A DNA stretch of 37,897 bases, from assembly GCA_028293825.1 (NCBI GenBank), contig JAQGNY010000004.1, positions 1 through 37,897 on the forward strand. Reading direction: 5' to 3'. Within the stretch, counting starts at the first letter, position 1. Every line of letters starts with the position of its first letter. The position numbers and the translations under genes were made by a program. Under the pieces are notes generated by a model. It saw nothing but the letters and a program-made list of their open reading frames with translations, was not told the DNA's origin and made no database searches. This document shows positions 19,366-24,070 of the stretch, piece after piece. Source of the stretch: Verrucomicrobiaceae bacterium (GTDB lineage: Bacteria > Pseudomonadota > Gammaproteobacteria > Pseudomonadales > CAMLJR01).

Positions 19366-22221
19366 ATGGAAAAGATAGTTGTGCGCGGCGCTCGAACCCA
19401 CAATCTCAAGAACATCGACATTGAAATTCCGCGCGACAAATTGGTGGTAATTACCGGGCTTTCCGGCTCAGGCAAGTCGTCGCTGGCCTTCGATACGCTC
19501 TACGCAGAAGGCCAGCGACGCTACGTCGAATCGCTATCGACCTATGCGCGTCAATTTCTTTCGATGATGGAAAAACCCGATGTCGACCATATAGAAGGAC
19601 TGTCGCCGGCGATTTCGATCGAGCAAAAATCGACATCGCACAATCCGCGCTCGACTGTCGGCACCATCACCGAAATTTACGATTATCTGCGTCTGTTGTT
19701 CGCCCGCGCCGGTGAGCCGCGCTGCCCCAATCACGACATTCCGCTCGCCGCGCAAACAGTCAGCCAAATGGTCGACAGCGTGCTGGAATTGCCCGAGGGC
19801 ACGCGCCTCATGTTGCTGGCGCCGGTTATTCGCGAGCGCAAAGGCGAGCATCTTCATATCTTCGAACAGCTGCGCAGCCAGGGCTTTGTGCGGGCGCGGA
19901 TTAACGGCTTGGTTACCGAACTCGACGACACGCCACAACTCGATAAAAACAAAAAACACACGATTGAAGTGGTCGTCGATCGCTTCAAAGTGCGCGCTGA
20001 TTTACAGCTGCGCTTAGCCGAATCCTTCGAGACCACACTCGAACTCAGCAGCGGTCTAGCCATGATTGCGTTCATGGACGAAAAGCGCGACGAGTTGGTT
20101 TTCTCATCGCAATTCGCCTGCTCGCAGTGCGGCTACAGTATCAGCGAACTGGAGCCGCGCCTGTTCTCGTTCAACAATCCGGCCGGCGCGTGCCCATCCT
20201 GCGATGGCCTTGGTGTGAAACAGTTTTTCGACGAGTCACGCATCATCACGCAACCCGATGCAAGCTTATCGACCGGCGCCATTCGCGGCTGGGACAAGCG
20301 CAGCGTTTACTATTTTCATATGCTCACATCGCTGGCCGAGCATTACGGCTTCGACATCGACACACCATTCAGTAAGCTGACGAAGAAATATCAGAAAGTC
20401 GTTCTGCACGGCAGCGGCGACGATGAAGTGTGCTTCAGCTACATCAACGATCGCGGCGATGTCTATCAACGCACCCACCGGTTCGAAGGTGTGATTCCGA
20501 ATTTCGAACGACGCTATCGTGAGACCGAATCACAATCGGTCCGTGATGAGTTGTCGAAATACCTCAGCAGCCAAAAATGCCCCGATTGCAAAGGCACGCG
20601 CCTGCGCGAAGAGGCGCGTCACGTATTTATCAAAGAACGCAACTTGCCGTCGCTAACGATGCTTCCGGTTGGCGAAGGACTCGCTTATTTCGCCGCGTTA
20701 AAGCTGAAAGGCAAGCAGGGTAAAATTGCCGACAAGATTCTCAAGGAGATTCGCGAACGCCTACAGTTTCTGGTCGATGTCGGCCTCAACTATTTAACGC
20801 TGGATCGCTCGGCCGAAACGCTGTCCGGTGGCGAGGCACAGCGCATTCGGCTGGCCAGCCAGATCGGCGCGGGCCTGGTGGGCGTCATGTACATCCTCGA
20901 CGAGCCATCGATTGGTTTGCATCAACGCGATAACGAACGCCTGCTCGGCACACTCACGCACCTGCGCGATCTTGGCAATACAGTGATCGTGGTCGAGCAC
21001 GATGAAGACGCGATCCGCAGCGCTGACTTCGTCATCGATATCGGACCGGGAGCTGGCGTGCATGGCGGCGAAGTGGTCGCCGCCGGCACGCTCAAAAATA
21101 TTCTCGATTGCCCGAAGTCGCTGACCGGCCAATACCTCAGCGGCAAAAAGAGTATCGCACTGCCGAAACAGCGCATCGCACCGAATCCCGAGCGCATGCT
21201 AATTCTGCAGGGCGCCACCGGTAACAACCTCAAAAACGTGACGCTCGAACTACCGCTGGGGTTGATGACATGCGTCACCGGCGTGTCCGGGTCGGGTAAA
21301 TCGACGCTCATTAACAATACGCTGTATCCGCTGGCCGCTACCGCGCTGAACGGCGCCGAGACTCTGCACGCAGCGCCCTGTACGGAAATTAGCGGGCTTG
21401 AGCATGTCGACAAATGTATCGACATTGATCAAAGCCCGATTGGCCGCACACCGCGTTCCAATCCAGCCACTTACACCGGAATTTTCACGCCGATACGGGA
21501 GCTGTTTTCCGGCACGCAAGAGGCTCGCTCGCGCGGCTATCAGCCAGGCCGCTTTAGCTTCAACGTGAAAGGCGGTCGGTGCGAAGCGTGTGAAGGCGAC
21601 GGCGTTATCAAGGTCGAAATGCATTTTCTTCCTGACGTTTACGTGCCCTGCGACATCTGCAAAGGCAAACGCTACAACCGAGAAACCCTGGAAATTAAAT
21701 ACAAAGGCAAAAGTATTCATGAAGTGCTGGACATGACTGTTGAGGACGCATGTCGCTTCTTCGAAAACGTCCCTTCGGTTGCCAAAAAATTACAGACGCT
21801 CATCGATGTCGGGCTTTCTTACATCAAGCTTGGACAGGCCGCCACAACGCTTTCCGGCGGCGAAGCGCAGCGGGTGAAATTGTCTCGCGAGCTTTCAAAG
21901 CGCGATACCGGACAGACGCTCTATATTCTCGATGAGCCAACCACGGGCCTGCATTTTCACGACATTCAACAGCTTCTGACTGTACTGCATCGTCTACGTG
22001 ACCACGGCAACACCATAGTCGTGATTGAGCACAACCTCGACGTGATTAAAACAGCAGATTGGATAATCGATTTAGGACCCGAAGGTGGCGACGGCGGCGG
22101 AGAAATCATCGCTCAGGGCACGCCGGAAACTGTCGTTAATCAATCCAAATCGTACACCGGGAAATTCCTGAAACCGTTACTCGGCATTCCCGCTAAGGGA
22201 CGCAAGCGGGCAGCCGGCTAA
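19366..22221 (+). CDS. uvrA: excinuclease ABC subunit A
   Basis: The damage-recognition ATPase of nucleotide excision repair. It has 951 residues, slightly longer than E. coli UvrA. ATPase domain I has Walker [10 protein letters not shown] (31-39), and ABC signature [16 protein letters not shown] with Walker [15 protein letters not shown]. Zinc-binding pairs CSQCG and CPSCDG, then CPDCKG, lie between. ATPase domain II has Walker [10 protein letters not shown] (about 639-647), the zinc module CEACEGDG and [10 protein letters not shown], signature [12 protein letters not shown] and [17 protein letters not shown] at 19366 follows AGGTGACGT. It is divergent from ssb and upstream of the PEP-CTERM pair, which has its own promoter. 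Confidence 0.98.
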
Positions 22222-22306
22222 CGATGTCGACTGCTTTTACACACCCCATTTTTGTCTGAGGCATTAAACCAGCCCATATCATTGTTTAAAAAGGAAAAAC
22301 TGTAAG

Positions 22307-22322
22307 TGGTCTGACACTTGCT
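22307..22322 (+). promoter_or_regulatory. sigma-54 (-24/-12) promoter for the PEP-CTERM gene pair
   Basis: TGGTCTGACACTTGCT has GG (22308-22309) and GC (22320-22321) exactly ten bases apart, with a perfect -12 TTGCT and -24 TGG; the CAC following the -24 TGG is not conserved. The predicted start near 22333 leaves a leader of about 50 bases. PEP-CTERM systems commonly carry the PrsK/PrsR pair, whose regulator is of the sigma-54-activating kind. Confidence 0.6.
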
Positions 22323-22383
22323 TAGAGATCGCAGACCGTGAACTACTTCACAGCTTTTTGAACACCGACATGAGGTCAAAATT

Positions 22384-22551
22384 ATGAACCGCAGCCTGAT
22401 ATCGATTTTTCTAATGGTTGCTTCGACGCAAGTATTGGCGGAGCCATTGAAGTACTTGCCGTCAATTTCAGTACCCGAGCCCAGCATAGTTTCACTGCTA
22501 GCGGCAGGCATAATTGCGCTGGGTATTGCTCGACGCCGAGCAGCAAAATAA
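22384..22551 (+). CDS. 55-residue PEP-CTERM micro-protein
   Basis: The protein starts MNRSLISIFLMVASTQVLA, a clear signal peptide with likely cleavage after VLA. It continues EPLKYLPSIS and ends with a full PEP-CTERM sorting signal: VPEPSIVSL, a hydrophobic stretch LLAAGIIALGIA and the basic tail RRRAAK. ATG at 22384 has AGGT seven bases upstream (GAGGTCAAAATT), a strong ribosome-binding site. It lies 47 bases before the next PEP-CTERM gene and after a sigma-54 element. If both ends are processed, only about 12-14 residues remain between the signal peptidase site and the PEP motif. Exosortase A would process it; that gene is not in this window. Usual PEP-CTERM proteins are 150 residues or more. 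Confidence 0.8.
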   Translation: MNRSLISIFLMVASTQVLAEPLKYLPSISVPEPSIVSLLAAGIIALGIARRRAAK

Positions 22552-22598
22552 TAGTATTAATTTAACTTACAGCCCAAGAAAGAAGAATGGAGAACAAA

Positions 22599-23111
22599 AT
22601 GAAGTCACTAATCGCTGGATTGTTGTTAAGCGTGCCTGTTTTGGCGCAAGCATACACCTGGACTGACACCGACCCAAGCACCCCAATCCTTGTCAACACA
22701 ACGACACCGTATCAATACACTTTTAGCCTGCTGGATCAGGGCTTTACCGTCGGCACCGACATCATCAGCAATTACAACGTCAGCATTCATTTGTTCGATA
22801 ATAGCCATTCGAGCTGGTTTGACTTTAACACCGCCGTGCTGGATCAACCCGGCCTTGTTGGCGATGATCTCAGCGTATTTTGGAGTGATGGCAGCCTCGG
22901 CGGATCGTCTTACCAGGGTCAAGTGAAGCTGAACCAAACCGGCACACTTGATGTATCAGTTTTTAGCCTGGCCGGAAGCTTCTTTATCGATAGCGCCAGC
23001 CTCACAGCAACTGGAACCAAAAAATCCAGCAATGTACCGGAGCCTACCAGCATCGCTCTACTCGCTGCAGGCCTTCTCGGTATTGCGGTTATGCGCCGCA
23101 AAAACGCCTAA
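22599..23111 (+). CDS. PEP-CTERM sorting domain protein
   Basis: An exported protein of 170 residues. The signal peptide MKSLIAGLLLSVPVLAQA is followed by a beta-rich region of about 125 residues with many Thr, Ser, Asp and aromatic residues (TWTDTDPS, YQYTFSLLDQGF, SIHLFDNSHSSWFDF). The C-terminal signal is VPEPTSIALLAAGLLGIAV with the basic end MRRKNA. ATG at 22599 is preferred because GGAG lies six bases upstream; ATG at 22587 would add four residues. It is cotranscribed with the micro-protein and closed by a good terminator. Such proteins are thought to be sorted by exosortase to the cell surface, often within an exopolysaccharide matrix; the core domain resembles a small beta sandwich of unknown role. 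Confidence 0.9.
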   Translation: MKSLIAGLLLSVPVLAQAYTWTDTDPSTPILVNTTTPYQYTFSLLDQGFTVGTDIISNYNVSIHLFDNSHSSWFDFNTAVLDQPGLVGDDLSVFWSDGSLGGSSYQGQVKLNQTGTLDVSVFSLAGSFFIDSASLTATGTKKSSNVPEPTSIALLAAGLLGIAVMRRKNA

Positions 23112-23125
23112 TCCTTTTTAGCGTG

Positions 23126-23152
23126 AAAAGCCGGCCTAATGGTCGGCTTTTT
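23126..23152 (+). terminator. intrinsic terminator of the PEP-CTERM pair
   Basis: Arms AAAAGCCGGCC (23126-23136) and GGTCGGCTTTT (23141-23151) pair over 11 positions with one G-T wobble, around the loop TAAT, and run into a T stretch. It starts 15 bases after the stop codon of the second PEP-CTERM gene. Confidence 0.85.
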
Positions 23153-23637
23153 ATCGCCTGATTTTTTGCCATACAGGAATCGCTATGGGCTCCTCCGAAA
23201 AAGCCAGCGCCAGCTTTAAGGCTCTTTCCGTACGAATGCTACTTAGCGCTGTAAAAACCCACGGCCACGAAATGAGCCGAGGTTAATAATTCGAAATACA
23301 TTGAGATCAATCTTCGTTATGGCCCGCACCGCGTTGCTTACGCCATACCGCACAAACTTACAGCGGCTTTGCAAACCAGCGGCCGTTAACTAATCATTAA
23401 AAAAACAAGTCATTTGATTTTTCGATAGCGTGCGCCTTATGGCTTTGTGCCCGTTCACAGACAGCGCTCCGCTCAGACCCCAGCGCTGCTCAAACATTGG
23501 ATCTTTAGATGATAAGCGCCGCTTCAAATCCACTCCCAGCCTCGGAAAAAATCCTTCGGCAACAAGACTGCATTAACGATGCGAATTCCTCAGAAACGAC
23601 TGACGCCTATATATCTACGACTATAGTTTTTAAAGCC
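23153..23637. other. 485-base stretch without a confirmed gene
   Basis: The region lies between the PEP-CTERM terminator and the rplQ terminator, which face each other. It holds the possible small pseudogene at 23185-23389 and a 47-codon minus-strand frame starting with GTG at 23533 (GAGG upstream) that I do not recognise. I see no tRNA, insertion-sequence end or repeat array. Confidence 0.5.
23185..23389 (+). pseudogene. possible frameshifted small hypothetical gene
   Basis: ATG at 23185 has AGGA six bases upstream and opens a frame of 33 codons (starting MGSSEKASASFKALSVRM). A second frame, shifted by one base, then continues with EVNNSKYIEINLRYGP and HRVAYAIPHKL to a stop at 23389. Removing one C at 23277-23278 would join them into one protein of about 67 residues. 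Both halves look protein-like, but I do not recognise the family. It could equally be a sequencing error, or two chance frames. Confidence 0.35.
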
Positions 23638-23667
23638 AAAAAAAAGCCCCGCATAAGCGAGGCTTTA
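23638..23667 (-). terminator. intrinsic terminator of the ribosomal/rpoA operon after rplQ
   Basis: On the minus strand AAAGCCTCGC and GCGGGGCTTT (23666-23657 and 23652-23643) pair over ten positions with one G-U wobble around the loop TTAT, followed by a U-run of eight. It starts 15 bases after the rplQ stop. Confidence 0.9.
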
Positions 23668-23680
23668 TAAAACGGAAATC

Positions 23681-24070
23681 TTAGTCAGCAGAGTCATCAG
23701 TAGCGCGCGTAACAGACCGGTCCACCAATTCAACATACGCCATCGGAGCGGTATCGCCAGCACGCAAACCGCACTTAAGAATACGAATATAACCACCTGG
23801 GCGAGCTTTGTAGCGCGGGCCTAATTCTGTAAACAACTTACCTACCGCCAACTTATCACGCAAACGATCAAAAGCAAGACGACGATTAGCAACGCTGTCG
23901 CTCTTTGCCAACGTGATCAACGGCTCTGCATAACGACGCAGCTCCTTTGCTTTCGGCAACGTGGTCTTAATCAACTCATGCTCAACCAAAGAGGCAGTCA
24001 TGTTCATGAACATCGCTTTGCGATGAGAGCTTGTACGATTAAAGTAGCGGCCGCTATTACGATGGCGCAT
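23681..24070 (-). CDS. rplQ: 50S ribosomal protein L17
   Basis: L17 binds 23S rRNA near the peptide tunnel exit. It has 129 residues with the N-terminal signature [20 protein letters not shown] and [20 protein letters not shown], ending in an acidic tail (TRATDDSAD). It is last in the alpha operon, 60 bases after rpoA, and is followed by an intrinsic terminator. Confidence 0.98.

Follow-up and report, generated by a model that had tools for sequence, protein, structure and literature searches.

A stretch of 37,897 nucleotides from contig JAQGNY010000004.1 of a Verrucomicrobiaceae bacterium (assembly GCA_028293825.1; hereafter the window) carries a gene for a 55-residue protein which consists of little more than an apparent signal peptide and a PEP-CTERM sorting signal. 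We regard it as highly probable that this micro-PEP-CTERM frame is a real gene wired like the genes of normal PEP-CTERM cargo, and it is probably expressed, judging from its sequence context. We also lean, with moderate confidence, toward the reading that its product is an expressed minimal substrate of XrtA-like exosortase sorting, under a PrsR/RpoN promoter and kept for some reason. Similar near-empty proteins occur elsewhere and may make up a small class of surface-sorting substrates that has been overlooked; no description of such a class was found among the titles and abstract openings listed in searches of an open-licence library.

The frame, its start, its stop and its translation are all as given in the earlier note, which described a signal peptide joined almost directly to a PEP-CTERM signal (Table 1). 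In profile searches the tail scored over both cut-offs (PF07589, 22.9 bits against 20.7; TIGR02595, 23.0 bits against 16), with the domain match stopping no more than four residues from the C-terminus, while the apparent signal peptide, judged by eye, shows a positive n-region, a hydrophobic h-region and V-L-A before the cleavage point. Ten residues lie between the two signals up to V30, or 14 with VPEP included; the 12-14 residues estimated earlier were thus about right. The claimed ribosome-binding site is present as well. Since none of 14 control genomes gave a PF07589 match over cut-off (weak matches below it appeared in 13 of the 14 when E up to 10 was allowed), a chance origin of the tail is unlikely.

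Table 1. Features of the micro-PEP-CTERM locus in the window and further micro-PEP-CTERM frames in this and other genomes
Feature	Position or genome	Strand	Basis or detail
Motif 1, activator box of PEP-CTERM regulon (putative PrsR site), TGTCGACTGCTTTTACA	22225..22241	+	TTTACA end and spacing as in PMC1569441
-24/-12 (sigma-54) element, TGGTCTGACACTTGCT	22307..22322	+	9/12 consensus positions; 65-nt spacer to motif 1; ATG 61 nt downstream
Shine-Dalgarno-like GAGG of micro gene	22372..22375	+	sequence; 8 nt 5' of ATG
Micro-PEP-CTERM gene, 55 aa	22384..22551	+	ORF translation, profile matches
Apparent signal peptide, residues 1-19, MNRSLISIFLMVASTQVLA	22384..22440	+	inspection of translation
Entire "mature" core, residues 20-29 (EPLKYLPSIS)	22441..22470	+	translation
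PEP-CTERM sorting signal, residues 30-55, VPEPSIVSLLAAGIIALGIARRRAAK (VPEP, hydrophobic helix, ARRRAAK)	22471..22548	+	PF07589, TIGR02595
Second gene, 170-aa PEP-CTERM protein, apparent signal peptide	22599..23111	+	ORF list, profile matches; 47 nt after micro gene
Likely intrinsic terminator of two-gene unit	23121..23157	+	hairpin -25.2 kcal/mol, z -6.15
Second micro of source genome	G000:C27		63 aa; no PEP-CTERM neighbour in 3-kb locus
Micros of G047 and G004	G047, G004		65 and 72 aa; cores ~6 residues
Micros of G013 and G054	G013, G054		68 and 67 aa
Micro of G405	G405		57 aa
Micro of G383	G383		62 aa
Micro of G163	G163		60 aa

Upstream, the sigma-54 element claimed in the earlier note was found, together with an activator box beyond that claim which starts 3 bases past the uvrA stop codon. 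Haft et al. 2006 (PMC1569441) describe for PEP-CTERM genes a motif 1 of 17 nt ending in TTTACA, followed after 62.8 +/- 10.6 nt by a -24/-12 motif 2 that lies on average 71 nt before the start codon, the pair being reported at 99/167. By the corresponding criterion (motif 1 ending in TTTACA, spacer of ~63 nt, -24/-12 motif 2) the micro gene is a putative member of the regulon: its motif 1 is exact, and spacer and motif 2 are as listed in Table 1. The score of the pair was reached in 0 of 1000 single-base shuffles of the 300 nt upstream of the gene, and the pair is unique in the window on both strands at the threshold used; motif 1 alone is unremarkable (with one mismatch, 2 in the window against 0.88 expected, and at least 2 in 24 of 100 shuffles). 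TTTACA, the spacing and the -24/-12 element were taken from PMC1569441. The TGTCG half of motif 1 was derived here from PEP-CTERM promoters, those of micros among them, and the pair scan of the window and the long genes used a threshold of 18 that was picked after these promoters had been viewed; the micro promoter scores are therefore partly circular.

The same scan found the pair upstream of 30 of 53 long PEP-CTERM genes from other genomes (55 examined, 53 with enough upstream sequence; a separate set, scanned without shuffle control), near the proportion of 99/167 given in PMC1569441. Within the source genome, two of the seven longer PEP-CTERM genes checked (C20b and C55) have a -24/-12-like site preceded at 64 nt by an exact TTTACA; the other five have no exact TTTACA at the proper distance from their best -24/-12 site. 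The same genome also holds a tandem array of six glycine-rich PEP-CTERM open frames of 634-679 aa (G000:C34:87717-97612; L011, L014, L001, L006, L008 and L007), for which the PrsR promoter pair was not found in the stretches examined.

The genome also encodes an exosortase and PrsR. Its one exosortase (G000:C12:23713-24468) reached 160.8 bits with PF09721 (cut-off 25.7), passed the cut-off of TIGR02602 and scored 132.3 bits against 105.55 with the general exosortase model; the best specific model, TIGR03109 (XrtA), gave 186.8 bits, under its cut-off of 208, and by these scores the enzyme is best called XrtA-like. It sits in an EPS locus, where nearby chain-length and export proteins score over XrtA-system cut-offs, and where a tyrosine kinase, an O-ligase-like protein and glycosyltransferases have XrtA-system models as their best matches, all below cut-off. 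PrsR is encoded on the same contig (G000:C12:44362-45678; TIGR02915, 712.8 bits against 502.6).

Directly downstream of the micro gene lies a gene for a normal-sized PEP-CTERM protein, with its own GGAG at 22589-22592 and an alternative upstream ATG at 22587 (174 aa), and with no promoter pair of its own in the window scan. The two products can be aligned in the tail only, where 13 of 28 residues are identical. The earlier statement that the micro gene heads an operon is borne out as far as layout goes: the gap is short, no terminator-like site was seen between the genes, and a strong hairpin follows the second (Table 1). The consensus scan of 22200-23700 returned no terminator-like site on the + strand, being blind also to this hairpin. 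The arrangement thus supports the micro gene as the first of a putative two-gene unit, in which co-transcription is predicted from sequence, whereas more than 65% of PEP-CTERM genes appear to be single-gene operons according to PMC1569441.

This pair looks lineage-specific. The spacing between uvrA and rplQ is 1459 nt in the window against 175 nt in G001, the only genus-mate (89% complete), and therefore both the micro gene and its partner are absent there. Absence of the frame from close relatives had been named in the earlier note as evidence against the gene, and absent it is, both from the gap of this sole genus-mate and, as a full-length relative, from the matches listed in 94 other genomes. 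Single-protein queries of genome contigs, which detect close relatives only and from which very near records may be omitted, likewise returned no relative of the micro-protein or of the 170-aa partner. Together with the short gap in G001, this indicates that the pair is a recent arrival or a fast-evolving orphan; by the same token, selection on this particular gene is not measurable.

Loci around uvrA were compared in 29 of the 92 other genomes that gave a match: the gap to rplQ could be measured in eight, at 64-175 nt (in the other 21, the rplQ pattern was unmatched inside the stretch examined), and no PEP-CTERM frame was seen 3' of uvrA on the uvrA strand in any of the 29. One hydrophilic match after uvrA (L068), returned by a loose regular expression, was rejected as chance. 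Within the corresponding gap of the window, the ORF list shows nothing of 60 aa or longer in the ~520 bases that separate the PEP-CTERM pair from rplQ (23160-23680). In two genomes of family f31, separate from the 29 loci, a PEP-CTERM gene with its own PrsR-type promoter pair (open frames of 168 and 154 aa; L033 in G031:C319 and L027 in G069:C206) runs convergent to the uvrA 3' end, in the same neighbourhood as in the window but on the opposite strand.

Beyond this locus, we found eight further micro-PEP-CTERM frames of 57-72 aa, one in the source genome and seven in four further families; the nine span five families (f1, f4, f13, f107 and f147 in our working numbering). The promoter pair stands upstream of seven of the nine, its score reached in 0 of 1000 shuffles for six and in 1 of 1000 for the second micro of the source genome; it was not seen at the G163 micro, nor at the G383 micro, upstream of which the contig holds only 194 nt.

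Three surveys with PF07589 covered 41 genomes and yielded 231 matches: 16 in the first, all over cut-off, and 118 and 97 in the other two, at E 0.003 or better with one in each below cut-off. Thirteen of the 231 lie in open frames of 90 aa or less, namely five full micros, six tail-only fragments and two contig-edge frames, frequencies that are not unbiased because the genomes of the two larger surveys were mostly picked for earlier matches. Short PEP-CTERM frames are thus a mixture, and a true micro is to be recognised by an intact signal together with an intact tail. Outside the 231 matches is the micro of G004:C22, counted as such despite a 123-aa open frame because the likely start, MKVTL, gives 72 aa, although an upstream start is possible. 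A class-wide search of 370 genomes, 81 with a match, had the G405, G163 and G383 micros among the matches listed, and micro counts there are lower bounds.

Several candidates were dropped: i) a 70-aa open frame with no ATG, GTG or TTG before residue 43 (G114:C10); ii) tail-only fragments without signal (G020:C12, G081:C205, G081:C222, G082:C89, G086:C23 and G054:C5), such remnants in relatives reflecting decay, frameshift or assembly error; iii) contig-edge frames (G023:C137 and G009:C44); and iv) frames that are longer, interrupted or without signal (G203:C4, G111:C144 and G393:C27). L085, L087 and L088, at ~82-110 aa, are short yet not micro. Short frames of genus g4 (L085, L088, L129 and L130, in G004 and G047) end in PEP-CTERM-like tails with other residues in place of PEP (DDLEPS, GLEPG, LEFG, SVDPS), possibly a variant sorting signal. 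Two PEP-CTERM matches of equal score at opposite ends of one contig (G067:C1:3949-4017 and 4468707-4468775) may represent a circular assembly whose overlap was left unresolved.

A search of relatives for short PEP-CTERM frames upstream of longer ones, proposed in the earlier note, was therefore productive for the frames themselves and not for their placement: among seven micros whose neighbours were viewed, only that of the window lies upstream of a longer PEP-CTERM gene, that of G405 is divergent to one and the other five stand apart. At the G405 locus (L162; G405:C8:17125-18706), the micro and the divergent normal PEP-CTERM gene each have a TTTACA box and a -24/-12-like site (spacers of 63 and 73 nt). 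In both L105 (G004:C22) and L106 (G047:C71), the g4 micro is flanked by glutamate-cysteine ligase on one side and by an EAL/GGDEF (cyclic-di-GMP type) protein on the other.

One pair of orthologs, in G013 and G054, allowed selection to be estimated. With 14 synonymous and 15 non-synonymous differences, dN/dS is 0.33 (Fisher p 0.006), a value resting on this one pair and its 29 differences. By part, dN/dS is 0.14 in the tail, 0.39 in the signal and 0.47 in the core, which also carries a one-codon indel. The neighbours are kept as well (in G013 they were identified as 6-phosphogluconate dehydrogenase and a fatty-acid hydroxylase; G054 has alignable frames of the same size), and their dN/dS of 0.05 and 0.15 indicates that the micro gene is under weaker constraint than they are. 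No core sequence is shared across the six aligned micros and three further ones.

A drifting core with an indel, beside a conserved tail and signal, speaks against a sequence-specific peptide and favours a substrate that works via its two processing signals. Two functions proposed in the earlier note lose ground: a released peptide, insofar as a specific one is meant, is weakened by cores that are mutually unlike and vary even between orthologs, and a scaffold for glycan attachment by a core with two Ser and no Thr or Asn.

From these features we infer expression, export, cleavage and possibly a function of the micro-protein along the following lines. The PrsR/RpoN promoter would drive the micro gene jointly with the gene of the normal-sized PEP-CTERM protein; signal peptidase I would remove the Sec signal; the PEP-CTERM helix would hold the product in the inner membrane; and exosortase would recognise VPEP and release or transfer a peptide of roughly 10-14 residues. 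Such passage through Sec and exosortase would be a natural consequence of the two signals, and we consider it quite likely. The useful part may be the passage of the near-empty substrate itself, whether by occupying exosortase or by carrying whatever exosortase attaches; this is favoured over a sequence-specific peptide because the two processing signals are conserved among micros and the cores are not. That the micro-protein is a substrate whose signals matter and not its core is our tentative preference, which we place ahead of an origin in gene turnover.

The latter would make the micro-protein a by-product: a PEP-CTERM paralogue whose mature domain was removed by an in-frame deletion and which is still transcribed and processed, without a selected role. 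Turnover of PEP-CTERM sets is rapid (PMC1569441, section 5), the micro frame and its neighbour look lineage-specific, and micros are sporadic within genera: the g13 family occurs full-length in 2 of the 12 genomes of its genus, and the G405 and G383 types in 1 of 3 genomes each. Tail-only fragments are moreover as common as true micros among the short frames of the surveys (six and five of 13, two being contig ends). Against it stand the intact promoter, ribosome site, signal and tail, the recurrence in five families, the constraint and conserved synteny in G013/G054, the retained synteny in G004/G047, and the finding of no long frame that matches the whole signal peptide and tail together among the matches listed. 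A decayed longer gene, which the earlier note had named as a finding that would speak against its reading, is disfavoured: the micro gene retains its promoter, ribosome site, signal and tail, each intact and all in one contiguous stretch, whereas the tail-only remnants of relatives have no signal peptide. We therefore rate the by-product as unlikely, though to be taken seriously.

Two other readings are improbable, and to a similar degree. The micro-protein could be the precursor of a specific, pheromone-like secreted peptide with the core as its active part, as its architecture of a two-step processed short precursor and its regulated promoter would allow, but the cores have no shared sequence, vary even among orthologs, where an indel is seen, and are under less constraint than any other part in the one measured pair; nor is there an obvious receptor or transporter among eight g4 and g13 neighbour proteins, the window neighbours being uvrA and rplQ. 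Alternatively, translation of the micro gene and not its product could matter for expression of the downstream PEP-CTERM gene, as for a leader cistron, which its first place in the two-gene unit and the 47-nt gap would fit; yet the second gene has a good ribosome site of its own, the second micro of the source genome and the g4 and g13 micros are not immediately followed by a PEP-CTERM gene on the same strand, and a full PEP-CTERM tail would be needless. A chance open frame, suggested by the mere 55 codons and the orphan status, is very improbable given a tail over a cut-off that none of the control genomes passed, together with a sound promoter pair, ribosome site and signal.

Compared with PEP-CTERM/exosortase (EpsH, XrtA) substrates of Proteobacteria (TIGR02595, PF07589; PMC1569441), the micro-protein has in common an apparent signal peptide (by eye), the tail and a PrsR/RpoN promoter with the published spacing, as well as an XrtA-like exosortase and an EPS locus in its genome; it differs in its ten-residue core, most PF07589 matches in the surveys lying in open frames of ~150-400 aa. 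It can be likened to the PepA-type floc proteins (NF033554), of which the Aquincola example is an RpoN-dependent PEP-CTERM protein tied to exopolysaccharide, with a signal peptide confirmed by PhoA fusion (PMC9850573). PepA, however, is full-length, with a model of 261 positions, of which the micro-protein matches the tail only (19.7 bits against a cut-off of 80). With whole-protein PEP-CTERM families of NCBIfam (NF041538, NF038129, NF038125 and others) it likewise shares the sorting tail: 11 such models of 165-307 positions were matched at their C-terminal end only and far under cut-off (for example, NF041538 at 25.4 bits against 100), and the micro-protein thus falls outside PepA, EDSAP-1 and the other families of this kind.

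More speculatively, near-empty or "blank" exosortase substrates may form a functional class that recurs within the PrsR regulon, a generalisation we put forward with considerable doubt. Equally conjectural is what they would do: signal-plus-tag proteins made alongside real cargo might occupy, pace or prime exosortase, or carry its attached group, with no need of a mature domain. To our knowledge, how exosortase cuts PEP-CTERM substrates, and whether it attaches a group to them, is still open. The role of VPEP is likewise left to be defined in the PepA study (PMC9850573). A core of about ten residues would make the micro-protein a good probe, since mass spectrometry could capture everything that is exported as a single peptide and read its C-terminus directly. 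If near-empty substrates are selected, this would point to the sorting signal itself, rather than the cargo, as what does a job in these cells.
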